From positions 124,001 to 188,000 of the forward strand of contig VIIQ02000577.1 in assembly GCA_007449985.2 (NCBI GenBank): a stretch of 64,000 bases of DNA, in the 5' to 3' direction. A program made the position numbers and the translations under genes. This document shows, piece after piece, positions 17,101 to 54,100 of the stretch. The first letter of the stretch is position 1, and every line of letters starts with the position of its first letter. The notes beneath the pieces are model-generated. The model was not told the DNA's origin, ran no database searches, and saw nothing but the letters and a program-made list of their open reading frames with translations. Origin of the DNA: Desmodesmus armatus (Eukaryota; Chlorophyta; Chlorophyceae; Sphaeropleales; Scenedesmaceae).

Positions 17101-20100
17101 TGCGTTCAAGCACCTGCATGTGCAGGGTGTGCTGAAAAAGCGCAGCAGCAGCAGCGTCAAAATCAAGCATGAGCTGATGGCTTGGCTGGCAGAGCATGTG
17201 GCTGGCTATGCTGACCTGCACTGCAGTGTGTGCATGAAGAAGGCCGCCAACAAGGGGCTGCACACATGGGAGGGTTTGATAGGGTATGCACGCAAGTGCA
17301 AGGGCCGGCAGGAGTATCGAGAGATGCTGCACAATGTCACGCCGCTTGAGTTGGAAGAGGGAGAGCACTTGATGCGGCTGCATGGCTCTGCCCTCAAGCA
17401 CAGGGTGGCTCTCACACAGCACAACATCATGGAGCGTGCTGTTACATATCGTGAGTTTGAGCTGCGTGCTAGGCTGAAGGTGTCCCTGGCAGCTATCGGC
17501 TATGCCATGATCGCTTCTGGCCAGTACTACTTTGATGCTGGCTGGGCGGTGCCATACATGGGGCAGGGCATGGACAGCACACGCTCAGAGGTGGTGTGGA
17601 TGTCTGCATGCATGCCTTTCAATGTGACACCAGCGGGTGTGGCAGCTGTGTTGTTCAAGGATGGTGCTGTTGCAGCATCCAGGCTGTCGTTTGCGGGTGT
17701 GCCTTCTGCTGAGGTTGATCGTGATGATGAGGTGCTGCTGCAGCTTGTTGATGATGCGCGTGAACGTGGTGTCACTGTTGGGTCGTTAGTGGACAACAGG
17801 CCTGCTGTGCGCGAGTTGGCGTATGAGCGCAACACGCAGATCCGTCGTCCCTGGCGTCCCGTTCAGCAGACTGAGCCTGCTGCTGATTTGCAGGTGATGA
17901 CTGATGCTGCTGCGCGCGAGCTGCGTGCAGGTGAGCAGCTGCGCTGGCATGGTGATCTCCTGCACCATGACCAGCACCTGTCTTGTGGTCTGGATAGTGA
18001 TTCCGATGACGCGTGACTGGTCGGCGGTTGCTAGGATTTGACTTGGTGACAGTTGGGCGCTGGTGGTTGTGCATGACGCCAGTGTGTGGGACGATTGTTT
18101 GTGTGTGCATTTGTCTTGTGGGCACATGTGCAGCAAATGTGCAAAGTTGTGGCTCATTCTGTAACGTGACTTTTTTTGGTGTTCGGCGGTGAGGATCAAA
18201 AGGGCAGAACCACCAGAATGCCATTATTTCACACTGACACATCCATGCAAGGTGCTGAATTGGCACAAAGAGCTCTGCATAGCTGCGGAGTTGCACAGTA
18301 CTGGTGGGCCTGCTGAGCCTTACCTGTGAGGCTGCTGCGGCACCAAATGCCTTGAGCACCACATCCGTCACCCTCTGGCTGGTCAACACGTTGCCACCGA
18401 CAACCGCAGCCTCTGGTGAAGGGTTCAGCAGGCACTGATCAGGTATCACCACCTGTGGAACAACACAGCAGCAGCATGCAAAACTTCACCACATGCCATG
18501 TATTGGATACACATGACAGCAGTGAACATGCGCAGCCAGCTCATGTGCAGGGGGAAACCTGCAGTCAATAAGGCATGCCACAAAGCGCACGCGAAACACT
18601 AATGTGTTGGTCAAAACCCAAAACCCTCACAGCCAGCACACCCACCTTGATAGGTGCCAGGCACCCCTGGTTGAGTGGTATGTCCCGTGTGACCAGGCAG
18701 CGCAGGCTGTATATGATGGCACTGTAGGCCACTGCAGGAGGGGCGTTGAGGTTGCCGTACACCTCAGGCCCGGTGCCTGTGAAGTCAAAGGTTGCTGAGC
18801 CATCACGCCTGCACCAAACATCACATTCACGCTCCACAATTAGGGCTGACTGCAGTGGGTGACACGATGCATAGGAGAGCCATTGCCGCCTTCCTGCGCC
18901 CCTTTCACACGGCGGTAGGGCGGCTGTGGTTGTCCTGACACGTTGAATTGTTTGAGCATGCGCTGATACACAGCAGCGCCATCGCAGCCATGCAACTGTT
19001 TGCGATGGAGGCTTGTACTGCTGGGTCAGACTTATGTTAATGCAGCACTGCAGCCCGCATTTGTGCTTACGGCTGGGGCAGCCCCACACATACAACCGCA
19101 ATTTTTGAGCACGCCCATTGCCATGGACTGCAAAACTACTCAAGGCTACAGCGATTAGAGCGGCGCTAGCGCTGAGGTTGCTGGAACACCATTGTTACGG
19201 CCAGCACAAAGAGGCTCTGTCAACTGTTGTGCCATCTTGGCCAGTGTTGAAACCAGGTTGCTGATGGTCAGCCTGTCTGTGCTGATGGAACAGTACTGTG
19301 CTAGGCAGTAGATTACCTGTTGATAGTGATGGCCAGGCATATTTTGCTGCCGTCGTCCAGCTGGTCCTCTGCTATGACTGTGCCAACTTCCGGCAGGCCC
19401 CGAGAAGATGAGAAGTCACACAGCATCTCACGCACAGCATCCTCTGCAGCAGCATGACGGCAACAACAGCAATATGGACAGGGATGAGTGCGACATTTCT
19501 GGATCTGGTGCTGATGGCTCATGTCCGTTGCTGACATGTGGCGGCATGAGGAACATCTGCATGAACTGTGCTCGCACGCCCCATGACAGCCTTGGCAACA
19601 GAGTGTTGCACGCTGCAAGAAGAAACTAACAGAGCATTCCATGCAGACAGTACGGCCTGGTTGTCATGTCGCCCTCCAATGCTGTGCCCACCTGCATTTG
19701 CCTGAATGAAGCCCATGTAAGCCTGCACCACCTGCAGGCTGTGCTCAGCTATCAACTCCCGCACAAGCTGGATGCCCTTCGTGTTGGCAGCCACCTGCAG
19801 GCAAGATGGCGGCAGCAAGACGGGTGGACATCAGCATGGCATCCAGTCACATGGCTACTCGAGAGCACCATGTGCTGGGATACCCCCGCACGTGTGGCCC
19901 TTACTTGTATAATCGCAGCCTCCGCGCACAGCTGTTCTGCTCAAAACCCTACTCCACCCTGACGACATCCACATCAACAACAACCTGACAGGTGCCTGTA
20001 AGAAGCAACGCACACAACAAGCAGCCGTTCCCCAGTTGTACACACCAGCACCACCAGGGTGCCGCCCACCTGTGCCTTGAGATCGCTGAGGTTGTCGCTG

Positions 20101-23100
20101 AGGTTGCGGGTGCCGCTGCAGCCTGGCAGCATGTCACCCAGCTTGCCAGGTGCCATCAGCAGCTCCGTGATGCCAGCCTCCTGCATATTCCCATGCGGTC
20201 AGCACAGCAGCAGCAGCAGCAGCACTTTCTTTGGGCAGCAGCAGCACTTTTGCTTGTTCGCCACATGGTTGAAAAAGTGAGCAAAACTCCGCCGTTGTTC
20301 AGCTGCCTACACGATGAGCCAGGACCATACAAAACAAACAATGTTGGGTGATGCGCACGGTACTGGGTGCCAGTAGCACTCTTGCAAACACCCAACACCA
20401 CCCTTTCCCCCACCAACACCTCAGCACACAATCCAGCCACATCAACAAACCCAACCTTGCACTCCTTTCCATAGTAATAGAGCACATACATACCTGGAAA
20501 GCCCCGTCCCTGACCAGCTTGAAGGACACCACAGCAGCACCTTCCTCTGCCAGTAGCTTGCTATTGGGCGGCATGCTGCCCGGGCTGATGCCTCCAATGT
20601 CAGCGTGGTGTCCCCTGCTTGCCACAAAGAACACCACCTGCCCGCCACTGAACACTGGCGTGATGACTGTTATGTCGGGTAGGTGGCTGCCACCAGCGAG
20701 CTGTGGGTGGTTGGACAGTAGCACGTCACCTTCCTGCACAGGGCAGGCAGAGCGACAATGCAAAAAAAAGCTGGTTGAGTTTGGCTGAATGTGGCATGCC
20801 TTGCTTACTTCTTGGTATTTTGCAAGGACCAACAAGCGAGCACCAGGGTCAGGTAGCCACAAGCCTCACGGCTTCGAATGTCTGCTGATTGGGGTGCAAC
20901 AATTCAAATTCAAAGACTCCAGGCCAGTGCATCAAAGGTAGTAGGATCCTCATGCAGACATACAGAATTCGCCATCCCATCTCTATGCTGCCATCCAGCC
21001 GCACCTGCAGCCCCTCGGCTGCCCCAGGTCCTCCCGGGCCGTAGTAGGCCACCTGGAAGCGCACCGCCTCAGACATGGCTCCCAGGTGAACCGGCAGGTG
21101 GGGCGCATTGGCCACCAACGAACCTGCAGCAAGGGGTACGCGAGTTTGTTCAAGCAGCGCTGAGGGCCTTGCGGGGCATGATAAGACCTCAACTCAGCCC
21201 AAATGCGCTTGTAGGGTCCTTTCGTAAAGCCTATGAGACGTGCTGACTGGTTAAGGCTTGTATGGCAGTGTGTCAATACACAGCAGCATGGCACACCACA
21301 TGGCTCACTGTGCCTGACATGAAGCGAGCTAGCCCAATCTGTGGCATGTGGAGTGTGTCACAACCTGCTACAGACGATAGTGAGGTCTCACCATCTGGCC
21401 CAAAGAGTGCACAGCTGAAGTCCAGTCGCTCCTTGATGTTGACGCTGATGGAGGTGCGCTGCAACACACGACCCATCTGCTCAGCAATGCCCATGAACCT
21501 GCACAAAACAGGACAGGTGTGAGCATGATGGCTTGGTACAGTCACAGTGGTGAGCAACCGGATCAGCAGCTTGCTCTCAAAGCTCAAACACTGCAGAAAC
21601 CCAGCCCTGCGACCAGCCTTACAGAGCCTTTGCATACTATCTCCACTATGTTTGGCTGTTGGGGCTGCAAAGGCGCACATATTCTGCAACAATACGCAAG
21701 GCACAACACGGTGGCGCATGAACAAGGCGTATGGTATGCCTGCCAGGCATGCCCAGTGAGCCCGAAAGGTAGAATCAAACAATGTGCCTTGCACACAAGC
21801 TCTTTCAAACCCCCACCTGTGGGAGAATATTGCCAGTTGGATGGGATCACAGGTGATGTCCCCGCCAGGCTGCTGCACTGTTGCCTCCTGCTGTGCTGGC
21901 TGCGGCGGCTGCTGCTGTTGCTGCTGGTCCAACTGCTGCTGCTGTTGCTGCTGACTGCTGTTGATGCGGACATTGCGCTCAGCAGTGATGGTAGCAGTCC
22001 ACCCTGGCTCTATCAGGATAGTACTGCAGGGGCAGAAACAGCAGCAGAAAACCCAGCGTCAACAAAGCAACCCCTGCAACAAAGCTTCCTCAGGTGTCAC
22101 TGTAAATTCTTGGTGGTGCTCAGCCCCTGTGCAAGCATGCCGATAAAGATCGCTCCCAGTGCAGGTCCATCTTGGTAAATTCCTTTGCTGATTGTGGCTC
22201 AATACACACACTGCTCTTGGCAGAGGGCGCAGCATCTAAGTGCCCCATTGAAACTTCCAACCCTACAGTTTGACCATCCCACTGTGGTCCGGCAGCCGTT
22301 CGATCTTCTAAATAGTAAGGCTTGCGCACCACCTTACATTTGTACATGTGGCCAGCCAATGGCCCCCCCCCCGGTTGCCCCCCCCCCCTCCCGCGGCCGC
22401 ACCAACACACCTTATGTTGTCTATCAGCAGTGCAGGCCCCTGCAGCTGCTGCCCCCCCGGCAGGTCATCCAGCATGTAGACTGGAGTGACCACACGGCCC
22501 AAGCCGTCAAAGTAGGCTTGAGTGGTGGTGGCAGGGTCCGGCAGGGAAGGCAATGAGCTGCTTGACAGAACCTGCAACCAAGACAGAATAGAGAGGGAGA
22601 GAGACACAGGGTGTGTGCGCTTGCACGCAGGGGATGCCAGGCTCTTTGTTGGATTGAACCATTTGTGGCTGCATGCAGACGCCTTGCCTCCGCGGCGCCC
22701 CAGATGCACTGACTATATAGGGGTGCTAAGGAGTGTGACGAATGTGCTTTGAGTCATACAGGCACAGCTCAGCACCATCAGCATGCACTGAGCTCCCAAT
22801 GCCACATGCACAGGGGCGCTCATTCAGACCGAAGCCACAGCTGTGGCAGCACAAATGGTGCATTGAAACGACACATTGTCTGGCCTGGCCTAAGTGGACT
22901 TACACGAGACCGTTCAATGTACAAGAGCAACACGAAAAGTGTCTGCAGCAATTTGCAGCAATGACGCTGCACCAGCTCCGTCAGGACGCGATCAAGCCTG
23001 CAGCGGACGTGTATCTGAAAACAGCAGCCGTGTATCTCTCACCTGTACGTGTGGCAGGTCTGCTGCGCGTCCTGTTGCCCTGACGCGCACATCATCCACC

Positions 23101-36100: not shown

Positions 36101-39100
36101 GATGCAGCAGCCAGCATGCCTCCCTGCGTGCCTCAGGCAGTGCCCCGGGCCTGTGTTTTTTGTTTCATATATACCGTACTACTAAGGCTAAGTTCCTCAT
36201 AGGCTTGAGGCAAGAGTTCGTGGGGTCTGGAGGGAAGCAGTAGCAAACCTGTTCATGCTGCGTTTTGTAATTGCTTGAGGGCTCACGTGCCGCTGTGTGC
36301 TGGCCCTGCAGGAGGGGCCCTGCTGCTGGCTGGTGTGGCATTCTGTGTGGCCGTCGCCAGGAAACGGAAGCGGAGGGCGCATGACGCTGCAGATAAAACG
36401 CCTGGCGCTGCACCCAACCTGATGGGGGTGTTGTTTGGCACCTCTGCAGGTACATCCTCAGGTGTACTGACAGTGTCAGTGCCGTGCATGTGAGCCAATA
36501 ATTTGTTTAGAGCAATTCAATCCAATTGTGTGGCACAGGCAATTGATGGCCGCCATCACAGTGTGATGGCAGCGCTCTGCACTTGCATCTGACATCGACC
36601 AATGCCTCAAGTCTGACTTCAGCATTGAGTACAGCCACTGCAAGCAGGCGTGCCGAAGTAGTCAGCGCTGCCACCACAGCATGTGCTGACTTACCAGCAA
36701 TGCATTGCCTGTGAATGCACAGGCGGTCTGTGACAACTGCTTGGACATGCATGTGCTGTCTTTTTGCAGATCCTGCCAGGAGTCTGTTGCAGGGCTCAGG
36801 CCATGGCGTCAGCCCCGCTGCCACTGTCGTCAGCTCTGCAGGAGCCTGTACCACTGCCGGCACAAGTACAGTAGGCATGAGCCCTCATGGAACTGTGGGC
36901 AGCAGCTACATCAGCACAGCACCACGGTCAAGGAGGTAAGGATGGGATCTGGTGTCATGGGGGTGCCTCTCTTTGTTGGCCGTGGCGCTTGCCCACTGTG
37001 GGATGCACTTCACGACCTTCCCTGAAGCTGAGCTTTCCCGCCTTTTTAGCAACTGTTCCTGATCATGCCCAATAGCAGCACATGGCGTCATGCACAGCGC
37101 TGCTCTCCAAACCTTTGTAACCACTCTGCTCGCCACCCTCCGTATGTCGTTTGTCGTATGTCTTGCCCTTTGGCACTCTGCTTTTATTGTCCAAGTGCAA
37201 GGCAGCTCATCCCCCAAGATGGGCGGCCTGTTATGACCCAGGAGGACATCACACTCAGTGTTATGATTGGTGCTGGTAGCTTTGGCCGGGTGTATTCAGG
37301 TACGGCTGAACCGCCAGGCATCCGTCATGCTGCTTGTTTTTCGAGAAGCTGAGCACAACCCATATTTTGTCGGTCCAGGACAGCCTTTGACAGCACTTTA
37401 CATCTGCGTGTTGGTTCTTGATGGCTTTACAAGTCATGCCAGACCATCTTACAGCAGGTGCATTGCATGCGAGTGAACATTCCCACAGCAGTGATGCATA
37501 CCAGCTGCCAGCAACAGCTGCCGCCTTATCTGCTGTGCAGGCTCCTGGCGGGACCGTCCAGTGGCTGTCAAGGTCATCAGCCACTCCTCAGCTGATGACG
37601 TGGCTATCAGCAGAGAGTTGACCCTCAGGTAGGTGGGTGCCACGGTAGTACAGGGCGGTGACCCCAAAAGAATGTTGGAGGACGGGCTGCCAGTTGAACT
37701 GGTGTACTGCCCTGTGACATGGCAGATGTGCATGAGTTTGTGTGTGCCTCATGTGGCGCGGTGCTCATCCAGGCGGCAAGCAAGGCGGTGCTGCATGTTT
37801 TCGATAAAAGTTCGTGACAGGACTGCAACTTGAGTGGTGTGTGGGCTGCAGCCCAGTCAACGCCTGAGGTATCAAGAGGCTGAGAAACCGCTTTTGCAGG
37901 CCAACAGTAATGCATGGGCTGGTTCATCGCAAGAGCTCAGCTATGGCATACAGTGGGTTCGGAAATGTTTTCCCACCCCCGCACGTACACACAAACTAGA
38001 GACATATGGCTATCAGGAACTGTGCTTAAGTCGTGGCGAAAGTGTTTGTATGACGAGTTATAGCAATTTACGGATGGCCCTCCCCACGCTCTGCGTCCGA
38101 GAGCCTTTTACAGCTTCTGGGGCTCTGGCAGGGCCAGCTGAGCCTCGGAAAATAATTTCTGTTGTTTTTTGGGCTTGCGGCCGTGCCTGCTGAGGGTCTG
38201 ATTGTCTTTTTGATGCTGCTGTGCAGCTTTCTGCTGCTCTGCCTGACTTGCTTTGGCTTCTGTGTGCCACACGATTCCATAGTCTGTTTTCGACAGGGAC
38301 TAAAGTTGAGGACATCGATGCATCTGTTTTTGTAAGGCAGCACCCCTCTGTGCTGCAGTAATTTTGTAAAAGTGTGTGTGTAGTGTGCAGTGCTGCCCAG
38401 TTTCTCCTGCTTAGAATGCCTGATCAGGCACCGGCACTGGTCAAAGTGTGACATTCAAACATCTGTTACTTCAACGGTTTCAACGGCCTGCTCTGTGCTC
38501 AGTGCCAGCTGGCCTGCCAGGCACTACAGGGTGTAGGAGCAGTAGGAAAGAAACAGCTTGCGAGGCTTTGGTCAGCGCAGGACACGCACGGTGAAAATAG
38601 CAGCCCCAGCTGTCTGGAAAAACATTTCCGAACCCACTGATGCGGGACCGGTGACAGCCGGTTTGTGAATTTGTCATGACGTCGTCCTGCACCTGTTTTG
38701 CCGGCTCTGCGGTGCCTCCATCACATAGGAAAGATCAATCATCATCGTTTGAGTGCGATCTGAGGCCTGGGCAGTGCTTCGCGACTATACTGCTCTGCTG
38801 TTTGTGCCAAGATCTGGGCTGCAGCAGAGGGCACTTCTGTATGTTGAACGCAAATGCAGTCTCGTTTGCACACATCTGATACTTATATCAAAGGCAATGT
38901 TTTGCAAGCCCCACAGCCCCAGCACAGCTGCATGCAGCAGGCGAGCATGACAGCTGGCAACAGTGCAAGCAAGATGGCAGCCAAGTGCTATTGCAGCACA
39001 CACAGGAGTTGCTGGAGTCCGTCACCTGTCTGCAACGATATGGAGGAAGTACGGGGTCCCAGAAATGGGCTGATCAGGCGAAGCTGAGTTTCAGTGCAAG

Positions 39101-42100
39101 TGCAGTATCAGCGAGGCCCTTCCAGGCTGTTGGCCAATTGTGTGCCAGCAGGTAAGCAATGGGCATTGAGGAAGCATGCAGGAACGGTATTCACATGCTA
39201 GAAGATACTTGCAAGTTGACTGGTTCGGGATTGCAGCCACACAGCAGCTGTCTTGAAGACTTGTGACTTGCAGCAGGTCCCTAGCCTCTACGTGCCGACA
39301 CATGCAGCATGTGACACCAGCAGCAGCAGCTGCATTGCAGACCCCAGCCCTAGCTAGCACACTATAGAGCCTTCTTGTCACAGAAGCAGCATGCACGGCA
39401 CATTTCAGCAGCAACCAGTACCAATCAGGTGGCTGTGTTTTTCTGCCTGTCTGCAAGGTGGTTGATGCAAGCGCAGCAGCGCCTCACATTTGGGAGGTGT
39501 TGACAAGGCCATGTGCAGGCAACCAGTTGCAATATGGTGTTGCTTTGAACCACAAAGTAAGTCCAGCACAGCTGTCTCTAGCGCGCAGGACAGCATCAGT
39601 CGTTGGGCCACATGCATGTACAACCCCCCTTGCAAGTACAAGTGCTGTGCAACAGCAGAGCATTGCACGAGCTGTGCGGGCCAGCTGCAGCATGGGGTGG
39701 TGGCAATGTGCAGTACTAGATGCCTGCCAGACGCAGCAGATCTCTGCACGCATGCCAAACTGGCAGAGTAAGTGCAGGTGCCACCTCCTCTATGTTGCAA
39801 GTCCGCATGGACTGAGTCCTCAACCATGCAGCAGCCGTCGATGGCGGCATGCCTCACTGTTTGTGTGGCCCTAAGGCTGTCTACACACCCAGTCTTGAGC
39901 AGCCGTTCTAGCCTCCCTTGCTGACTGAGGTCCCGTATGCTGCTGCTACCTGCAGGTGACCTTCCCAAAGGGGGGTCAGAGGTCGCATTGACATCAAGCT
40001 GCGTGCAGCCTTCCGAATCAGGCGCCACCCATTGCAGCTTGTTGGTGTTGTGTGGCTCAGCATCTGCAGCTGTCGGGTTGTTCACGTGCATGCCCCTCCT
40101 TGTCGGAGGGGGTGCAGTGCTGTACAAAATCTGTTGGTGGCTTGGGCAGTGGGCAAGCGGTGAAGCTTGCAGAACGACCCTGATTTTGTTGTTCTAGCAA
40201 AATGCATTGAAGGTTGTCACTGTTGCATGTATACTGCCTTTGGGGCCAGCAAAGCTTGCTGCTGTGTTGTACGCACATTGGTGTCACTGTACCCCATTCT
40301 GGGCAAGGGGCCATTGGAGCCAAAATGGGGCCGTTGGTGCCTACGCGCACAGGCCACAAGTCAGCCTCAATTGTGGTGTGTGGTCTTGCCCTAGTGAGTT
40401 GTGCATGGTGCCAGGGTGGCACGTCCATTTGGCCGGCGGATGGCAACTGCGCCCAGATCAGTGGGTTCGGAAATGTTTTCCCACCCCCGCACGTACACAC
40501 AAACTAGAGACATATGGCTATCAGGAACTGTGCTTAAGTCGTGGCGAAAGTGTTTGTATGACGAGTTATAGCAATTTACGGATGGCCCTCCCCACGCTCT
40601 GCGTCCGAGAGCCTTTTACAGCTTCTGGGGCTCTGGCAGGGCCAGCTGAGCCTCGGAAAATAATTTCTGTTGTTTTTTGGGCTTGCGGCCGTGCCTGCTG
40701 AGGGTCTGATTGTCTTTTTGATGCTGCTGTGCAGCTTTCTGCTGCTCTGCCTGACTTGCTTTGGCTTCTGTGTGCCACACGATTCCATAGTCTGTTTTCG
40801 ACAGGGACTAAAGTTGAGGACATCGATGCATCTGTTTTTGTAAGGCAGCACCCCTCTGTGCTGCAGTAATTTTGTAAAAGTGTGTGTGTAGTGTGCAGTG
40901 CTGCCCAGTTTCTCCTGCTTAGAATGCCTGATCAGGCACCGGCACTGGTCAAAGTGTGACATTCAAACATCTGTTACTTCAACGGTTTCAACGGCCTGCT
41001 CTGTGCTCAGTGCCAGCTGGCCTGCCAGGCACTACAGGGTGTAGGAGCAGTAGGAAAGAAACAGCTTGCGAGGCTTTGGTCAGCGCAGGACACGCACGGT
41101 GAAAATAGCAGCCCCAGCTGTCTGGAAAAACATTTCCGAACCCACTGATGCGGGACCGGTGACAGCCGGTTTGTGAATTTGTCATGACGTCGTCCTGCAC
41201 CTGTTTTGCCGGCTCTGCGGTGCCTCCATCACATAGGAAAGATCAATCATCATCGTTTGAGTGCGATCTGAGGCCTGGGCAGTGCTTCGCGACTATACTG
41301 CTCTGCTGTTTGTGCCAAGATCTGGGCTGCAGCAGAGGGCACTTCTGTATGTTGAACGCAAATGCAGTCTCGTTTGCACACATCTGATACTTATATCAAA
41401 GGCAATGTTTTGCAAGCCCCACAGCCCCAGCACAGCTGCATGCAGCAGGCGAGCATGACAGCTGGCAACAGTGCAAGCAAGATGGCAGCCAAGTGCTATT
41501 GCAGCACACACAGGAGTTGCTGGAGTCCGTCACCTGTCTGCAACGATATGGAGGAAGTACGGGGTCCCAGAAATGGGCTGATCAGGCGAAGCTGAGTTTC
41601 AGTGCAAGTGCAGTATCAGCGAGGCCCTTCCAGGCTGTTGGCCAATTGTGTGCCAGCAGGTAAGCAATGGGCATTGAGGAAGCATGCAGGAACGGTATTC
41701 ACATGCTAGAAGATACTTGCAAGTTGACTGGTTCGGGATTGCAGCCACACAGCAGCTGTCTTGAAGACTTGTGACTTGCAGCAGGTCCCTAGCCTCTACG
41801 TGCCGACACATGCAGCATGTGACACCAGCAGCAGCAGCTGCATTGCAGACCCCAGCCCTAGCTAGCACACTATAGAGCCTTCTTGTCACAGAAGCAGCAT
41901 GCACGGCACATTTCAGCAGCAACCAGTACCAATCAGGTGGCTGTGTTTTTCTGCCTGTCTGCAAGGTGGTTGATGCAAGCGCAGCAGCGCCTCACATTTG
42001 GGAGGTGTTGACAAGGCCATGTGCAGGCAACCAGTTGCAATATGGTGTTGCTTTGAACCACAAAGTAAGTCCAGCACAGCTGTCTCTAGCGCGCAGGACA

Positions 42101-45100
42101 GCATCAGTCGTTGGGCCACATGCATGTACAACCCCCCTTGCAAGTACAAGTGCTGTGCAACAGCAGAGCATTGCACGAGCTGTGCGGGCCAGCTGCAGCA
42201 TGGGGTGGTGGCAATGTGCAGTACTAGATGCCTGCCAGACGCAGCAGATCTCTGCACGCATGCCAAACTGGCAGAGTAAGTGCAGGTGCCACCTCCTCTA
42301 TGTTGCAAGTCCGCATGGACTGAGTCCTCAACCATGCAGCAGCCGTCGATGGCGGCATGCCTCACTGTTTGTGTGGCCCTAAGGCTGTCTACACACCCAG
42401 TCTTGAGCAGCCGTTCTAGCCTCCCTTGCTGACTGAGGTCCCGTATGCTGCTGCTACCTGCAGGTGACCTTCCCAAAGGGGGGTCAGAGGTCGCATTGAC
42501 ATCAAGCTGCGTGCAGCCTTCCGAATCAGGCGCCACCCATTGCAGCTTGTTGGTGTTGTGTGGCTCAGCATCTGCAGCTGTCGGGTTGTTCACGTGCATG
42601 CCCCTCCTTGTCGGAGGGGGTGCAGTGCTGTACAAAATCTGTTGGTGGCTTGGGCAGTGGGCAAGCGGTGAAGCTTGCAGAACGACCCTGATTTTGTTGT
42701 TCTAGCAAAATGCATTGAAGGTTGTCACTGTTGCATGTATACTGCCTTTGGGGCCAGCAAAGCTTGCTGCTGTGTTGTACGCACATTGGTGTCACTGTAC
42801 CCCATTCTGGGCAAGGGGCCATTGGAGCCAAAATGGGGCCGTTGGTGCCTACGCGCACAGGCCACAAGTCAGCCTCAATTGTGGTGTGTGGTCTTGCCCT
42901 AGTGAGTTGTGCATGGTGCCAGGGTGGCACGTCCATTTGGCCGGCGGATGGCAACTGCGCCCAGATCAGTGGGTTCGGAAATGTTTTCCCACCCCCGCAC
43001 GTACACACAAACTAGAGACATATGGCTATCAGGAACTGTGCTTAAGTCGTGGCGAAAGTGTTTGTATGACGAGTTATAGCAATTTACGGATGGCCCTCCC
43101 CACGCTCTGCGTCCGAGAGCCTTTTACAGCTTCTGGGGCTCTGGCAGGGCCAGCTGAGCCTCGGAAAATAATTTCTGTTGTTTTTTGGGCTTGCGGCCGT
43201 GCCTGCTGAGGGTCTGATTGTCTTTTTGATGCTGCTGTGCAGCTTTCTGCTGCTCTGCCTGACTTGCTTTGGCTTCTGTGTGCCACACGATTCCATAGTC
43301 TGTTTTCGACAGGGACTAAAGTTGAGGACATCGATGCATCTGTTTTTGTAAGGCAGCACCCCTCTGTGCTGCAGTAATTTTGTAAAAGTGTGTGTGTAGT
43401 GTGCAGTGCTGCCCAGTTTCTCCTGCTTAGAATGCCTGATCAGGCACCGGCACTGGTCAAAGTGTGACATTCAAACATCTGTTACTTCAACGGTTTCAAC
43501 GGCCTGCTCTGTGCTCAGTGCCAGCTGGCCTGCCAGGCACTACAGGGTGTAGGAGCAGTAGGAAAGAAACAGCTTGCGAGGCTTTGGTCAGCGCAGGACA
43601 CGCACGGTGAAAATAGCAGCCCCAGCTGTCTGGAAAAACATTTCCGAACCCACTGATGCGGGACCGGTGACAGCCGGTTTGTGAATTTGTCATGACGTCG
43701 TCCTGCACCTGTTTTGCCGGCTCTGCGGTGCCTCCATCACATAGGAAAGATCAATCATCATCGTTTGAGTGCGATCTGAGGCCTGGGCAGTGCTTCGCGA
43801 CTATACTGCTCTGCTGTTTGTGCCAAGATCTGGGCTGCAGCAGAGGGCACTTCTGTATGTTGAACGCAAATGCAGTCTCGTTTGCACACATCTGATACTT
43901 ATATCAAAGGCAATGTTTTGCAAGCCCCACAGCCCCAGCACAGCTGCATGCAGCAGGCGAGCATGACAGCTGGCAACAGTGCAAGCAAGATGGCAGCCAA
44001 GTGCTATTGCAGCACACACAGGAGTTGCTGGAGTCCGTCACCTGTCTGCAACGATATGGAGGAAGTACGGGGTCCCAGAAATGGGCTGATCAGGCGAAGC
44101 TGAGTTTCAGTGCAAGTGCAGTATCAGCGAGGCCCTTCCAGGCTGTTGGCCAATTGTGTGCCAGCAGGTAAGCAATGGGCATTGAGGAAGCATGCAGGAA
44201 CGGTATTCACATGCTAGAAGATACTTGCAAGTTGACTGGTTCGGGATTGCAGCCACACAGCAGCTGTCTTGAAGACTTGTGACTTGCAGCAGGTCCCTAG
44301 CCTCTACGTGCCGACACATGCAGCATGTGACACCAGCAGCAGCAGCTGCATTGCAGACCCCAGCCCTAGCTAGCACACTATAGAGCCTTCTTGTCACAGA
44401 AGCAGCATGCACGGCACATTTCAGCAGCAACCAGTACCAATCAGGTGGCTGTGTTTTTCTGCCTGTCTGCAAGGTGGTTGATGCAAGCGCAGCAGCGCCT
44501 CACATTTGGGAGGTGTTGACAAGGCCATGTGCAGGCAACCAGTTGCAATATGGTGTTGCTTTGAACCACAAAGTAAGTCCAGCACAGCTGTCTCTAGCGC
44601 GCAGGACAGCATCAGTCGTTGGGCCACATGCATGTACAACCCCCCTTGCAAGTACAAGTGCTGTGCAACAGCAGAGCATTGCACGAGCTGTGCGGGCCAG
44701 CTGCAGCATGGGGTGGTGGCAATGTGCAGTACTAGATGCCTGCCAGACGCAGCAGATCTCTGCACGCATGCCAAACTGGCAGAGTAAGTGCAGGTGCCAC
44801 CTCCTCTATGTTGCAAGTCCGCATGGACTGAGTCCTCAACCATGCAGCAGCCGTCGATGGCGGCATGCCTCACTGTTTGTGTGGCCCTAAGGCTGTCTAC
44901 ACACCCAGTCTTGAGCAGCCGTTCTAGCCTCCCTTGCTGACTGAGGTCCCGTATGCTGCTGCTACCTGCAGGTGACCTTCCCAAAGGGGGGTCAGAGGTC
45001 GCATTGACATCAAGCTGCGTGCAGCCTTCCGAATCAGGCGCCACCCATTGCAGCTTGTTGGTGTTGTGTGGCTCAGCATCTGCAGCTGTCGGGTTGTTCA

Positions 45101-48100
45101 CGTGCATGCCCCTCCTTGTCGGAGGGGGTGCAGTGCTGTACAAAATCTGTTGGTGGCTTGGGCAGTGGGCAAGCGGTGAAGCTTGCAGAACGACCCTGAT
45201 TTTGTTGTTCTAGCAAAATGCATTGAAGGTTGTCACTGTTGCATGTATACTGCCTTTGGGGCCAGCAAAGCTTGCTGCTGTGTTGTACGCACATTGGTGT
45301 CACTGTACCCCATTCTGGGCAAGGGGCCATTGGAGCCAAAATGGGGCCGTTGGTGCCTACGCGCACAGGCCACAAGTCAGCCTCAATTGTGGTGTGTGGT
45401 CTTGCCCTAGTGAGTTGTGCATGGTGCCAGGGTGGCACGTCCATTTGGCCGGCGGATGGCAACTGCGCCCAGATCAGTGGGTTCGGAAATGTTTTCCCAC
45501 CCCCGCACGTACACACAAACTAGAGACATATGGCTATCAGGAACTGTGCTTAAGTCGTGGCGAAAGTGTTTGTATGACGAGTTATAGCAATTTACGGATG
45601 GCCCTCCCCACGCTCTGCGTCCGAGAGCCTTTTACAGCTTCTGGGGCTCTGGCAGGGCCAGCTGAGCCTCGGAAAATAATTTCTGTTGTTTTTTGGGCTT
45701 GCGGCCGTGCCTGCTGAGGGTCTGATTGTCTTTTTGATGCTGCTGTGCAGCTTTCTGCTGCTCTGCCTGACTTGCTTTGGCTTCTGTGTGCCACACGATT
45801 CCATAGTCTGTTTTCGACAGGGACTAAAGTTGAGGACATCGATGCATCTGTTTTTGTAAGGCAGCACCCCTCTGTGCTGCAGTAATTTTGTAAAAGTGTG
45901 TGTGTAGTGTGCAGTGCTGCCCAGTTTCTCCTGCTTAGAATGCCTGATCAGGCACCGGCACTGGTCAAAGTGTGACATTCAAACATCTGTTACTTCAACG
46001 GTTTCAACGGCCTGCTCTGTGCTCAGTGCCAGCTGGCCTGCCAGGCACTACAGGGTGTAGGAGCAGTAGGAAAGAAACAGCTTGCGAGGCTTTGGTCAGC
46101 GCAGGACACGCACGGTGAAAATAGCAGCCCCAGCTGTCTGGAAAAACATTTCCGAACCCACTGATGCGGGACCGGTGACAGCCGGTTTGTGAATTTGTCA
46201 TGACGTCGTCCTGCACCTGTTTTGCCGGCTCTGCGGTGCCTCCATCACATAGGAAAGATCAATCATCATCGTTTGAGTGCGATCTGAGGCCTGGGCAGTG
46301 CTTCGCGACTATACTGCTCTGCTGTTTGTGCCAAGATCTGGGCTGCAGCAGAGGGCACTTCTGTATGTTGAACGCAAATGCAGTCTCGTTTGCACACATC
46401 TGATACTTATATCAAAGGCAATGTTTTGCAAGCCCCACAGCCCCAGCACAGCTGCATGCAGCAGGCGAGCATGACAGCTGGCAACAGTGCAAGCAAGATG
46501 GCAGCCAAGTGCTATTGCAGCACACACAGGAGTTGCTGGAGTCCGTCACCTGTCTGCAACGATATGGAGGAAGTACGGGGTCCCAGAAATGGGCTGATCA
46601 GGCGAAGCTGAGTTTCAGTGCAAGTGCAGTATCAGCGAGGCCCTTCCAGGCTGTTGGCCAATTGTGTGCCAGCAGGTAAGCAATGGGCATTGAGGAAGCA
46701 TGCAGGAACGGTATTCACATGCTAGAAGATACTTGCAAGTTGACTGGTTCGGGATTGCAGCCACACAGCAGCTGTCTTGAAGACTTGTGACTTGCAGCAG
46801 GTCCCTAGCCTCTACGTGCCGACACATGCAGCATGTGACACCAGCAGCAGCAGCTGCATTGCAGACCCCAGCCCTAGCTAGCACACTATAGAGCCTTCTT
46901 GTCACAGAAGCAGCATGCACGGCACATTTCAGCAGCAACCAGTACCAATCAGGTGGCTGTGTTTTTCTGCCTGTCTGCAAGGTGGTTGATGCAAGCGCAG
47001 CAGCGCCTCACATTTGGGAGGTGTTGACAAGGCCATGTGCAGGCAACCAGTTGCAATATGGTGTTGCTTTGAACCACAAAGTAAGTCCAGCACAGCTGTC
47101 TCTAGCGCGCAGGACAGCATCAGTCGTTGGGCCACATGCATGTACAACCCCCCTTGCAAGTACAAGTGCTGTGCAACAGCAGAGCATTGCACGAGCTGTG
47201 CGGGCCAGCTGCAGCATGGGGTGGTGGCAATGTGCAGTACTAGATGCCTGCCAGACGCAGCAGATCTCTGCACGCATGCCAAACTGGCAGAGTAAGTGCA
47301 GGTGCCACCTCCTCTATGTTGCAAGTCCGCATGGACTGAGTCCTCAACCATGCAGCAGCCGTCGATGGCGGCATGCCTCACTGTTTGTGTGGCCCTAAGG
47401 CTGTCTACACACCCAGTCTTGAGCAGCCGTTCTAGCCTCCCTTGCTGACTGAGGTCCCGTATGCTGCTGCTACCTGCAGGTGACCTTCCCAAAGGGGGGT
47501 CAGAGGTCGCATTGACATCAAGCTGCGTGCAGCCTTCCGAATCAGGCGCCACCCATTGCAGCTTGTTGGTGTTGTGTGGCTCAGCATCTGCAGCTGTCGG
47601 GTTGTTCACGTGCATGCCCCTCCTTGTCGGAGGGGGTGCAGTGCTGTACAAAATCTGTTGGTGGCTTGGGCAGTGGGCAAGCGGTGAAGCTTGCAGAACG
47701 ACCCTGATTTTGTTGTTCTAGCAAAATGCATTGAAGGTTGTCACTGTTGCATGTATACTGCCTTTGGGGCCAGCAAAGCTTGCTGCTGTGTTGTACGCAC
47801 ATTGGTGTCACTGTACCCCATTCTGGGCAAGGGGCCATTGGAGCCAAAATGGGGCCGTTGGTGCCTACGCGCACAGGCCACAAGTCAGCCTCAATTGTGG
47901 TGTGTGGTCTTGCCCTAGTGAGTTGTGCATGGTGCCAGGGTGGCACGTCCATTTGGCCGGCGGATGGCAACTGCGCCCAGATCAGTGGGTTCGGAAATGT
48001 TTTCCCACCCCCGCACGTACACACAAACTAGAGACATATGGCTATCAGGAACTGTGCTTAAGTCGTGGCGAAAGTGTTTGTATGACGAGTTATAGCAATT

Positions 48101-51100
48101 TACGGATGGCCCTCCCCACGCTCTGCGTCCGAGAGCCTTTTACAGCTTCTGGGGCTCTGGCAGGGCCAGCTGAGCCTCGGAAAATAATTTCTGTTGTTTT
48201 TTGGGCTTGCGGCCGTGCCTGCTGAGGGTCTGATTGTCTTTTTGATGCTGCTGTGCAGCTTTCTGCTGCTCTGCCTGACTTGCTTTGGCTTCTGTGTGCC
48301 ACACGATTCCATAGTCTGTTTTCGACAGGGACTAAAGTTGAGGACATCGATGCATCTGTTTTTGTAAGGCAGCACCCCTCTGTGCTGCAGTAATTTTGTA
48401 AAAGTGTGTGTGTAGTGTGCAGTGCTGCCCAGTTTCTCCTGCTTAGAATGCCTGATCAGGCACCGGCACTGGTCAAAGTGTGACATTCAAACATCTGTTA
48501 CTTCAACGGTTTCAACGGCCTGCTCTGTGCTCAGTGCCAGCTGGCCTGCCAGGCACTACAGGGTGTAGGAGCAGTAGGAAAGAAACAGCTTGCGAGGCTT
48601 TGGTCAGCGCAGGACACGCACGGTGAAAATAGCAGCCCCAGCTGTCTGGAAAAACATTTCCGAACCCACTGATGCGGGACCGGTGACAGCCGGTTTGTGA
48701 ATTTGTCATGACGTCGTCCTGCACCTGTTTTGCCGGCTCTGCGGTGCCTCCATCACATAGGAAAGATCAATCATCATCGTTTGAGTGCGATCTGAGGCCT
48801 GGGCAGTGCTTCGCGACTATACTGCTCTGCTGTTTGTGCCAAGATCTGGGCTGCAGCAGAGGGCACTTCTGTATGTTGAACGCAAATGCAGTCTCGTTTG
48901 CACACATCTGATACTTATATCAAAGGCAATGTTTTGCAAGCCCCACAGCCCCAGCACAGCTGCATGCAGCAGGCGAGCATGACAGCTGGCAACAGTGCAA
49001 GCAAGATGGCAGCCAAGTGCTATTGCAGCACACACAGGAGTTGCTGGAGTCCGTCACCTGTCTGCAACGATATGGAGGAAGTACGGGGTCCCAGAAATGG
49101 GCTGATCAGGCGAAGCTGAGTTTCAGTGCAAGTGCAGTATCAGCGAGGCCCTTCCAGGCTGTTGGCCAATTGTGTGCCAGCAGGTAAGCAATGGGCATTG
49201 AGGAAGCATGCAGGAACGGTATTCACATGCTAGAAGATACTTGCAAGTTGACTGGTTCGGGATTGCAGCCACACAGCAGCTGTCTTGAAGACTTGTGACT
49301 TGCAGCAGGTCCCTAGCCTCTACGTGCCGACACATGCAGCATGTGACACCAGCAGCAGCAGCTGCATTGCAGACCCCAGCCCTAGCTAGCACACTATAGA
49401 GCCTTCTTGTCACAGAAGCAGCATGCACGGCACATTTCAGCAGCAACCAGTACCAATCAGGTGGCTGTGTTTTTCTGCCTGTCTGCAAGGTGGTTGATGC
49501 AAGCGCAGCAGCGCCTCACATTTGGGAGGTGTTGACAAGGCCATGTGCAGGCAACCAGTTGCAATATGGTGTTGCTTTGAACCACAAAGTAAGTCCAGCA
49601 CAGCTGTCTCTAGCGCGCAGGACAGCATCAGTCGTTGGGCCACATGCATGTACAACCCCCCTTGCAAGTACAAGTGCTGTGCAACAGCAGAGCATTGCAC
49701 GAGCTGTGCGGGCCAGCTGCAGCATGGGGTGGTGGCAATGTGCAGTACTAGATGCCTGCCAGACGCAGCAGATCTCTGCACGCATGCCAAACTGGCAGAG
49801 TAAGTGCAGGTGCCACCTCCTCTATGTTGCAAGTCCGCATGGACTGAGTCCTCAACCATGCAGCAGCCGTCGATGGCGGCATGCCTCACTGTTTGTGTGG
49901 CCCTAAGGCTGTCTACACACCCAGTCTTGAGCAGCCGTTCTAGCCTCCCTTGCTGACTGAGGTCCCGTATGCTGCTGCTACCTGCAGGTGACCTTCCCAA
50001 AGGGGGGTCAGAGGTCGCATTGACATCAAGCTGCGTGCAGCCTTCCGAATCAGGCGCCACCCATTGCAGCTTGTTGGTGTTGTGTGGCTCAGCATCTGCA
50101 GCTGTCGGGTTGTTCACGTGCATGCCCCTCCTTGTCGGAGGGGGTGCAGTGCTGTACAAAATCTGTTGGTGGCTTGGGCAGTGGGCAAGCGGTGAAGCTT
50201 GCAGAACGACCCTGATTTTGTTGTTCTAGCAAAATGCATTGAAGGTTGTCACTGTTGCATGTATACTGCCTTTGGGGCCAGCAAAGCTTGCTGCTGTGTT
50301 GTACGCACATTGGTGTCACTGTACCCCATTCTGGGCAAGGGGCCATTGGAGCCAAAATGGGGCCGTTGGTGCCTACGCGCACAGGCCACAAGTCAGCCTC
50401 AATTGTGGTGTGTGGTCTTGCCCTAGTGAGTTGTGCATGGTGCCAGGGTGGCACGTCCATTTGGCCGGCGGATGGCAACTGCGCCCAGATCAGTGGGTTC
50501 GGAAATGTTTTCCCACCCCCGCACGTACACACAAACTAGAGACATATGGCTATCAGGAACTGTGCTTAAGTCGTGGCGAAAGTGTTTGTATGACGAGTTA
50601 TAGCAATTTACGGATGGCCCTCCCCACGCTCTGCGTCCGAGAGCCTTTTACAGCTTCTGGGGCTCTGGCAGGGCCAGCTGAGCCTCGGAAAATAATTTCT
50701 GTTGTTTTTTGGGCTTGCGGCCGTGCCTGCTGAGGGTCTGATTGTCTTTTTGATGCTGCTGTGCAGCTTTCTGCTGCTCTGCCTGACTTGCTTTGGCTTC
50801 TGTGTGCCACACGATTCCATAGTCTGTTTTCGACAGGGACTAAAGTTGAGGACATCGATGCATCTGTTTTTGTAAGGCAGCACCCCTCTGTGCTGCAGTA
50901 ATTTTGTAAAAGTGTGTGTGTAGTGTGCAGTGCTGCCCAGTTTCTCCTGCTTAGAATGCCTGATCAGGCACCGGCACTGGTCAAAGTGTGACATTCAAAC
51001 ATCTGTTACTTCAACGGTTTCAACGGCCTGCTCTGTGCTCAGTGCCAGCTGGCCTGCCAGGCACTACAGGGTGTAGGAGCAGTAGGAAAGAAACAGCTTG

Positions 51101-54100
51101 CGAGGCTTTGGTCAGCGCAGGACACGCACGGTGAAAATAGCAGCCCCAGCTGTCTGGAAAAACATTTCCGAACCCACTGCATACCAGCAGGAGATCCGAA
51201 TGGCAGATGATCTACTCTCATGATGTTGCTGTGCAACTGTGCGCTGTGCTGCCGTATACTGCTGCCTGCCCTGTAGTTTGAGCTTTGACAGCCCCAACTT
51301 GGTCAGGACACTGCACTATGCTCGCACCAAGATCAATGCAGACAGTGCAGACCTGGTAAGGACACCTGCATGCTTTGCCATACCTGTCAAAACACACCTT
51401 GATATGCAGCCAAATCAGCTGTTCTGCAAGTGTCAAGTGTCTCTTTTGGTGCTCTGTTTCTAAGGGGCATGCTCAATGTGTGCTGGTCCGCCGTGTGTCA
51501 GAGAAGTTACACAGTGGCAACTTGCATGTGCATGATGGTGTACGGACAGCGTCAGAGACAGACCAGCACTGTTGATGGGCTGGGATGCTGCAACTGTTTT
51601 TCAATGCAGGGTGCCCCAGGCCAACCTGGTGGCAGCAGCCTGTTCATGCCGCAGGGGGCTGTGGGTGTCTTTGAGCTGCCGACAGACTGGGCAGTCGTCC
51701 AGCAGCAAGCACATGTAGAGGAGCCAGTCATTGACAAGTGAGTAGCCCGGCGTGAGTGGCCCACTAGCCTAGTAGGACAGCTTACTGGGTACCACAGGAA
51801 GTGCCAGAGCAGCAAAGAGCTCAGCACTAGCCAAGCGGCTCTGCAGGCGCCCGGCGGGCCAATGCTCTCACATCATCATTACACGTGTTTCCGGCCAGGT
51901 TCATTGCCCAAGCAGCAAGCTGCCAGCAGCAAATCGACCCTGGTGCAAGACAAGCAATACACCACCAGGCGACCAGTGACCTAGGACACTAGAAAGCCTG
52001 TGCCAGTTACGGCCACAACGCAGGCATACAAAGGGCATAAGAAGCAGCAGCGCTGAAACGGGCTGCTGCAGACCACCCCACACATGCTGCTATGTGGTTT
52101 CAAAACCAAATGCTCTCACATGACAGAACTTTTCCACATGACAGCACTTTGGGGGTGGGTCGCTGCGTGGGACAGCTGTCCGAAAGCACTTTGCACCTAA
52201 CAAAGCTGCGCTCATTGTATCATGTGCGCCACATGCTTGCAGGGAGACGTGGATTGTCATGGACTTGATGGACCGTGGCACGTTGGCATCTGCTGTGAGG
52301 CGGGGCGTGTTTGTCGCGGACAACCGCATCAGAGCTGTGAGTCCCAATTGCTGCGCATCAATAGCTCATGGGACCGTTGTTTCAGGCGTTGGACGCGTTG
52401 CCTGGCCCTGCGCAAGCTTGTCAGCGGCTGGCGCGTTGAGCAGAGAGGTGCAGAATACATCACTCCATGCCATTGTGGAAATTCATTCAGCGCACCCAGT
52501 AGAGTGTGGCACAACCTGGCATGTGCACTTGGCGCTCTGCTCACATGCCAAACATCTGCTCATGGCACAGGGGCTGTTGCTGCCAGTGACTCATGCAGCG
52601 GCTGTGTTCCTTTCCTCTTGCTGCTATTTTATTTCCTGTGTGCAGGCCATGTTGCTGCGGCGCCTTGCTGATGTGGCCTCTGGGTTGTGTTACCTGCACT
52701 CTCGCAACGTTTGCCATGGTGACCTCAAGTGCGAGAATGTGCTGCTGCGCACAGGTAGGCGGACCGTGAACCTGGCAAAAGCATCCGGGCATACGGTGGG
52801 TTGCAGTTGTGGCGCAATGACAGGTGACATCATGTGAACATGTGCAGTGCTTGAGCAGCACCACAGCTGCCAGCCGTAGTGTGGGACATGCCTCAATGTT
52901 GACATCGGAACAACTTACTTTTTGCTGTTGCAGAGCTGCAAGACCCGGATGGCATGATGGCAGCAGTGGCGGACTTTGGGCTGAGCAGGGCGCTGGCGCT
53001 GGGGCAGGTGAGCTTTCCTGTCGAGTGGCACCTGACGACTGACCTGCGCCGGCCGTCGGCTTGCTGCAGTGTCCTGGGTGCCAGGCCACTGTGCTGACGA
53101 GCGATAAATTGAGGATTGGCAGCTTGCTAGATTGCACGAACAAGCCTGCACTATAATGCCACACTGTGAGTCATGTACTGCAGCATGCCCCTTCTTGTCA
53201 CAATGCTGCATGCGTGGCCGCGACTGAGCAGCGGCTTTCACTGCTGCAGTGGCTTTTGTTTGATGACCTGCCCTCAGTCTTGTCGATATCTAGTGGTTGA
53301 CTGGGGTTGCTGTTGTTGCTGCTGTGCATGTAGTCTCATTTGAGTACGATGAAGTACGGCACTGTGACCCACCAGCCGCCAGAGCTGTTGGTTGCCGGCA
53401 AGCTCACGCCGCAGGCTGACATCTACTCCTTTGGCATCATGAGTGAGTTGGAAGCTGTAGGGTTGATGACGGCCTAAGAATTGACATGTCTGACTGCACA
53501 GCTGTATACGGTTCTGCAGAGCCTTTCTTGTCAGCAAATGCTTTGTCCTGTGTCTTGCTTCACTATCGTGCTTTGAATCAATTTGAGATTTGACAGGCCC
53601 TTATAGCATGTCTATCAAGTGCCTAACTTTGGCCAAAGAGGCACTGTTTGCTGAGTTACTCAACAGCTGCCGGCAGTAAGCTGCATTGCCGCCTTTGTTC
53701 TGTGCCTGTGCCTGCAGTGTGGGAAGTGGTCTCACAAAAACTGCCTTTTGCTGGCATGCACCATGGTAGGTACCTTGCAGGAACAGCCTATTCAGTGACA
53801 AGGACCACTTCAACACAACATGCATGCATATGTGGGCATGCAAAGCCGCAGGACGCACCGTGGCAAACACAGACACTGCAACCGCCGCAGTGCAAGCGGT
53901 TTGCAAGCAGTACCAACACCCCTGACCTGACAATGACATTCATCAGCAGCACTCAAATGCAACGATCAACAAATGCCATGGCTCCTCCCCTTATATACGG
54001 CTGGCATCTTCAGTGTTGCTCGAGGGCCTGGCTGCCTTGTGCCAGATGCCTCTGCCAGCCTGCGCCCCTCAAACACGCAATTTCGGCTATGTTGCTGCTG

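Follow-up and report, generated by a model that had tools for sequence, protein, structure and literature searches.

The 64,000-nucleotide stretch of Desmodesmus armatus DNA analyzed here (contig VIIQ02000577.1, positions 124,001 to 188,000, hereafter the window) carries a large tandem array inside an intron of a kinase gene. Two segments alternate in this array: a 689-bp element with terminal inverted repeats, which we call M, and an 1819-bp segment, which we call S. Comparison with the remainder of the genome (a single assembly of 115.8 Mb in 831 contigs, studied from sequence only) leads us to propose that the array is probably one insertion of a family of non-autonomous composite DNA transposons with the structure M(SM)n, in which S is apparently 1819 bp of non-coding cargo.

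Self-comparison of the window at an offset of 2508 bases revealed a single unbroken match of 10,721 bases starting at position 37951. No other exact direct repeat block of 40 bases or more was found in the 64 kb besides the M/S array. The array occupies positions 37951-51179, and its 13,229 bp equal 5 × 2508 + 689, with no mismatches between units. As delimited by the self-comparison, six copies of M (37951-38639, 40459-41147, 42967-43655, 45475-46163, 47983-48671, and 50491-51179) alternate with five copies of S (38640-40458, 41148-42966, 43656-45474, 46164-47982, and 48672-50490), all on the + strand. An earlier reading of this stretch, made from the sequence alone (the sequence-only reading), had reported this layout, this length, and the lack of divergence, and all three proved exact. 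M starts with CAGTGGGTTCGGAAATG and runs from CA to TG. Its 25-bp inverted ends (37951-37975 and 38615-38639 in the first copy) are 96% complementary. The entire array is bracketed by a 4-bp direct repeat in the flanking sequence, the target-site duplication CATA (37947-37950 and 51180-51183).

Kinase motifs on the + strand flank the array, with GAGSFG (37269) and VAVK (37561) before it and DFGL (52972) after it. The exon pieces, joined by hand, matched the Pfam families PK_Tyr_Ser-Thr (E = 9.2e-8) and Pkinase (E = 1.1e-7) over residues 3-66. With boundaries placed by eye (exon end at 37628, next exon start at 51277, GT at 37629, AG before 51277, and reading frame kept), the intron extends over 37629-51276 on the + strand. 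It measures 13,648 bp, in agreement with the earlier claim that a single kinase intron had been enlarged to 13.6 kb, and it would measure 415 bp minus the array and one 4-bp duplication.

The genome contains many relatives of this array. Searching for the first 21 bases of M with up to two mismatches yielded 258 matches (127 + 131), and the reversed control yielded none. S was matched at least 49 times, as counted from the best 39 of 129 candidates scored. Arrays with the 2508-bp period are present on many contigs, so that the unit forms near-homogeneous tandem arrays at several loci, as satellite DNA does. Meanwhile, contigs C231 and C215 carry M-S-M blocks of 3197 bp, with flanks that differ from those of the window.

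We scored the 12 insertions for which both ends were fetched; further insertions reach contig ends or were outside this set. Every one of the 12 is bordered by a 4-bp target duplication, and none by a longer one. The window is the only insertion with n = 5. Two have n = 2, namely C66:94602-100306 (C66a), with duplication CTCA, and C490, with CCGG. Seven have n = 1, with duplications read on the contig strand (C80, TTTG; C143, CCAT; C403, CAAG; C779, TATG; C781, CATT; C231, AGCA; C215, CAAC). The remaining two are C66:122840-131502, which has the structure M-SSSS-M (CAAG), and C71, which is a diverged M alone (CATT). The insertion sites also have a palindromic target in common: over both strands of the 12 sites, A or T occupies position -2 in 24 of 24 cases and G occupies position -1 in 20 of 24. 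The motif CAWN/NWTG fits eight of the 12 duplications (p ~4e-7 against the window background), a value that is descriptive since the motif was picked post hoc.

Collectively, the duplications at all 12 insertions and the shared palindromic target suggest that the mobile entity is M(SM)n, with S as its cargo. The name "spacer", which the sequence-only reading had given to S, is therefore too weak for a segment that travels with M. The seven M-S-M insertions with outer 4-bp duplications point to movement as a composite transposon. M itself resembles a miniature inverted-repeat transposable element (MITE) or another non-autonomous transposon with terminal inverted repeats, having inverted ends, a 4-bp duplication, many copies, and no Pfam family in the frames scanned.

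Ten other array ends were single. Among their 4-mers were three complementary pairs from arrays at contig ends (C32/C86, C326/C726, and C315/C627), against an expectation of ~45/256 = 0.18. In addition, C32 and C86 have the changes A110T in M and C117T in S in common in their end units. We read these complementary pairs as large arrays that were presumably split by the assembly. The right array ends of C232, C592, and C593 have a common outer flank, TAATGCTCCTGG, and in C593 and C232 copies of M occur in both orientations, ~4.3 kb apart. These three contigs may represent a single locus that holds an inverted array, present as alleles or as duplicated contigs.

The joins between adjacent S copies are informative as to the loss of M. 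Where two S copies meet without M, the junction reads AGAT-CAG-ATGC or AGAT-CTG-ATGC; in an older subfamily, AGAT is replaced by CCAT. M opens with the triplet CAG and closes with CTG. An end triplet of M was present in 14 of 14 scored joins (CAG in eight, CTG in six), which comprise nine from a first set, three from C66:122840-131502, and two from C310; a degenerate S-S join in the error-laden start of C326 (1-270, 5-base gap) was omitted. The three scars of C66:122840-131502 were predicted from its length (8663 = 2 × 689 + 4 × 1819 + 3 × 3) and then confirmed in the letters. Joins with a complete M numbered at least 38 in the same material, under a strict pattern. Judging from these junctions, the triplets are excision scars of M. 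The occurrence of either CAG or CTG at one junction fits the repair of a 3-nt staggered cut, and a junction that had never contained M would not be expected to show now one end of M and now the other. No M-free ancestral satellite was seen among the best 39 of 129 and the best 39 of 126 candidates. In both subfamilies, the S-M joins inside arrays, such as that at 40455-40462 of the window, have the form AT|M|AT, although the four bases on one side of M (AGAT or CCAT) are unlike those on the other (ATGC).

The variants carried by the units provided insights into the history of the arrays. Units within an array are mostly, not always, alike, and the assembly retains differences between them. C66a carries the changes T260G in M and T612C in S throughout, that is, in its three copies of M and two of S, and so does C781 in its two copies of M and single copy of S. 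Seven changes are common to both copies of M in C80. In a subfamily that is ~5% diverged, no difference was seen among both Ms of C403 and the single M fetched from C490. The insertion at C66:122840-131502 has two identical end Ms, which differ from those of C403 at six of 689 sites, five of which fall within 606-656. Part of this M may stem from conversion by a different lineage of M. The two partly fetched end copies of S in this insertion are each one site off C403, and the equal scores of its four S copies suggest that these changes are unit-specific. In C326, one S is unlike its neighbors. Near some contig ends (C61, C32, and C727), units show many one-base deletions, as in an unpolished long-read consensus; hence, identities there are lower bounds.

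Based on these findings, we postulate that a transposase acting in trans would recognize the ends of M. As every M has both a left and a right end, such an enzyme could pair the left end of a given M in an array with a right end from whichever other M, and the block between them would move. If distant Ms can pair in this way, blocks of variable length would jump. Solo M, M-S-M, and longer arrays would each land as a single cut-and-paste insertion with a 4-bp duplication. Meanwhile, unequal exchange through identical Ms would lengthen, shorten, and homogenize arrays, and the excision of an M from an array would leave the 3-bp CAG or CTG scar. The sequence-only reading had put forward recent amplification by unequal exchange between the elements, and exchange through the 689-bp copies still appears to be the likeliest route by which arrays lengthen. 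Each n = 1 haplotype has a possible donor array, which is the window type, C66a in the case of C781, or C490 in the case of C403.

Several observations weigh against the proposal of a mobile M(SM)n. The S-M joins inside arrays read AGAT|M|ATGC, without a 4-bp duplication and unlike the insertion-site consensus, so that the proposal does not account for how M-S-M first arose. Some arrays are mosaic. In C32, A110T occurs in three of four Ms and C117T in two of three informative S copies, with the exceptions sitting near the error-laden contig start. C310 has one M with two changes that are absent from the other Ms fetched or listed, C625 and C628 each have one S unlike its neighbors, and C779 has two changes in only one M. 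Furthermore, C71 is the sole scored solo M with a duplication, and it comes from a diverged group. A second allele of the window locus was not detected either, as a search of the genome with 1200 bp of left flank gave a single match. Searches for a transposase or a longer partner with the ends of M, using patterns that cover part of the possible ends, returned 0, 1 (control, 3), and 0 matches.

The data from the window fit both the joint arrival of five units and growth in place from M-S-M. We regard as plausible, if somewhat on the doubtful side, that growth in place is the whole story: M-S-M landed at CATA and grew to n = 5 through unequal sister exchange, and longer blocks never jump. The prevalence of n = 1 (seven of 12 scored insertions) agrees with this, as do the existence of mosaic arrays and the fact that long direct repeats favor exchange, which leaves the outer duplication intact. 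The insertion at C66:122840-131502 sits less well with it, as its outermost Ms survive while the three between them are gone. This is expected for a block that was cut between the surviving Ms, but it may have occurred by chance, and it is not decisive against growth in place. A different origin, which we hold to be unlikely, would involve a 2508-bp circle of M and S that was excised or popped out, multimerized, and reinserted, so that the five clonal units of the window arrived jointly. Such a route explains the identity of the window units and the variants common to all units of C66a, to both Ms of C781, and to those of C403 and C66:122840-131502. Nevertheless, no such circle was observed, a homogenized donor array accounts for the sharing of variants equally well, and the end duplications and scars already require a transposase acting on the ends of M. 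The mosaic arrays (C32, C310, C625, and C628) also speak against the circle, since exchange fits them better than a one-step amplification does.

Less probable still is that the assembler multiplied a single real unit, or that several units were polished to a false identity. The absence of differences across 13 kb would be expected in this case, polishing is uneven (as in the one-base deletions mentioned above), and big arrays break contigs. Yet independent loci have n = 0, 1, 2, and 5, each with its own duplications, and base differences from unit to unit were kept in C310, C326, C625, and C628, which renders a pure artefact unlikely. Among the three explanations offered by the sequence-only reading, the mobile array is the best supported, by the 12 scored insertions with outer 4-bp duplications. 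We also considered a non-autonomous long terminal repeat (LTR) retrotransposon, similar to terminal-repeat retrotransposons in miniature (TRIMs), with M as the LTR, S as the internal region, and the array as a tandem LTR element. Direct end repeats that are identical in several insertions, the 4-bp duplication, and arrays with shared end repeats are all compatible with this scenario, and single insertions of tandem LTR elements have been described (PMC11899658). However, the first 20 bases of S contain no TGG, the longest purine run in its last 60 bases is 4, and the CAG or CTG scars at 14 of 14 M-less joins are foreign to LTR biology. LTRs have the ends TG...CA, whereas M ends in CA...TG with 25-bp inverted repeats. 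The ends, the lack of a primer site and of a purine tract, and the scars therefore led us to reject this origin, which we consider highly improbable.

Four known groups of DNA transposons did not match the composite transposon that we propose. Tc1/mariner elements, which duplicate TA, were ruled out by the 4-bp duplications at 12 of 12 sites, although the 3-bp scar resembles theirs. The piggyBac superfamily duplicates TTAA, which was found at none of the 12 sites. No duplication longer than 4 bp occurred at these sites, which rules out hAT elements, whose duplication is 8 bp. Helitrons have neither target duplications nor inverted ends and were excluded by the presence of both in M.

The gene content of the unit was also examined. 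The 262-aa frame of S, six other S frames, one frame across S and M, and two M frames all scored below the Pfam cut-off, so coding cargo was rejected. Within this subset of frames, the strongest Pfam score was a sub-cut-off match to LEDGF (E = 0.081). One protein with 99% identity was found in a 1,686-base ENA contig, which we interpret as a copy of this DNA from a close relative and not as evidence of a gene. The search for RNA genes returned only a sub-threshold small nucleolar RNA match (E = 2.1), and no transfer RNA was found by the search for these. None of 20 shuffles was as stable as the single-strand fold of M, which is expected from its inverted ends and was not used as support. A viral origin was rejected, as exact matches to the M end were absent from viral contigs. 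A single M-end match among bacterial and archaeal genomes, in a Lachnospiraceae metagenome-assembled genome, was taken as chance.

Parallels to M(SM)n were found in several systems. In corals, full-sized MITEs known as CMITEs form tandem arrays, some of them with gaps or with similar intervening sequence, for which replication slippage was inferred (PMC2872659). These resemble the arrays of M, but CMITEs are ~100 bp long, have TTAA duplications, and are attributed to slippage; whereas arrays of M(SM)n lie between target duplications of their own at many loci, the passages on CMITEs mention no such arrangement (PMC2872659). In maize, the ends of neighboring Ac elements act jointly and can cause re-replication, and in Ac/Ds macrotransposons the ends of two elements are used together, with the DNA between them moved or duplicated, reminiscent of M(SM)n (PMC4270019). 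Elements and segments vary in that system, whereas M(SM)n has a fixed, dispersed cargo, variable n, a 4-bp duplication, and CAG or CTG scars (PMC4270019). Rice tandem LTR elements appear to be single insertions and, like M(SM)n, are arrays with shared internal end repeats; they are copied via RNA, whereas M(SM)n is devoid of LTR ends and priming sites (PMC11899658). Reviews mention repeats located within MITEs as well as spread by way of circles (PMC12628747, PMC9659126), and the foldback element Tetris of Drosophila contains tandem repeats in its interior (PMC4079207). Xenopus miDNA4/Xstir and Tetris are similar to M(SM)n in that inverted-repeat elements are tied to tandem arrays of variable copy number, but their repeats are internal to the element or derived from it, while the whole of M lies within the repeat unit (PMC12628747, PMC9659126, PMC4079207). 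For this reason, every unit of M(SM)n has usable ends.

The bacterial insertion sequence IS26 forms comparable arrays, IS-cargo-IS-cargo-IS, with direct end elements and tandem amplification; in IS26, the transposase is within the IS, the duplication is 8 bp, and the mechanism involves cointegrates or circles (PMC7986276, PMC6350997). M(SM)n differs in being eukaryotic, in having no transposase in M, and in its excision scars. More speculatively, and with rather low confidence, M(SM)n could be a eukaryotic counterpart of IS26-type arrays, that is, a satellite unit with full transposon ends that moves in blocks of any length, possibly after amplification through a 2508-bp circle of M and S, by means of a transposase outside the described superfamilies (4-bp palindromic target, 3-nt stagger). 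The literature that we searched, at the level of titles and abstract openings, contained no dispersed eukaryotic family in which arrays built from whole MITEs and a spacer, differing in copy number, are inserted with target duplications. How satellites spread to new chromosomal sites is a long-standing question, and the process is usually put down to circles or chance recombination. In M(SM)n, transposon ends are part of the repeat unit itself, and clean target duplications border the insertions with n = 1, 2, and 5. Hence, the seeding of satellites by ordinary transposition becomes directly testable, and the scars, variants, and insert sizes of this family record landing, growth, and loss.

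Other features were observed elsewhere in the window. A 396-aa open frame at 16826-18016 (+) displayed the Replitron HUH endonuclease domain (PF21859, E = 2.9e-14). Ten relatives of this frame were found, the closest of which is 99% identical (ENA contig), and the frame represents a further mobile element in the vicinity of the kinase gene. A frame at 5907-7313 (+) matched the TPR domain of the FAN1 nuclease (PF21170, E = 1.2e-9), and a short match of 40 residues to Hydantoinase B/oxoprolinase (PF02538, E = 3.6e-14) was detected at 21273-22058 (-).

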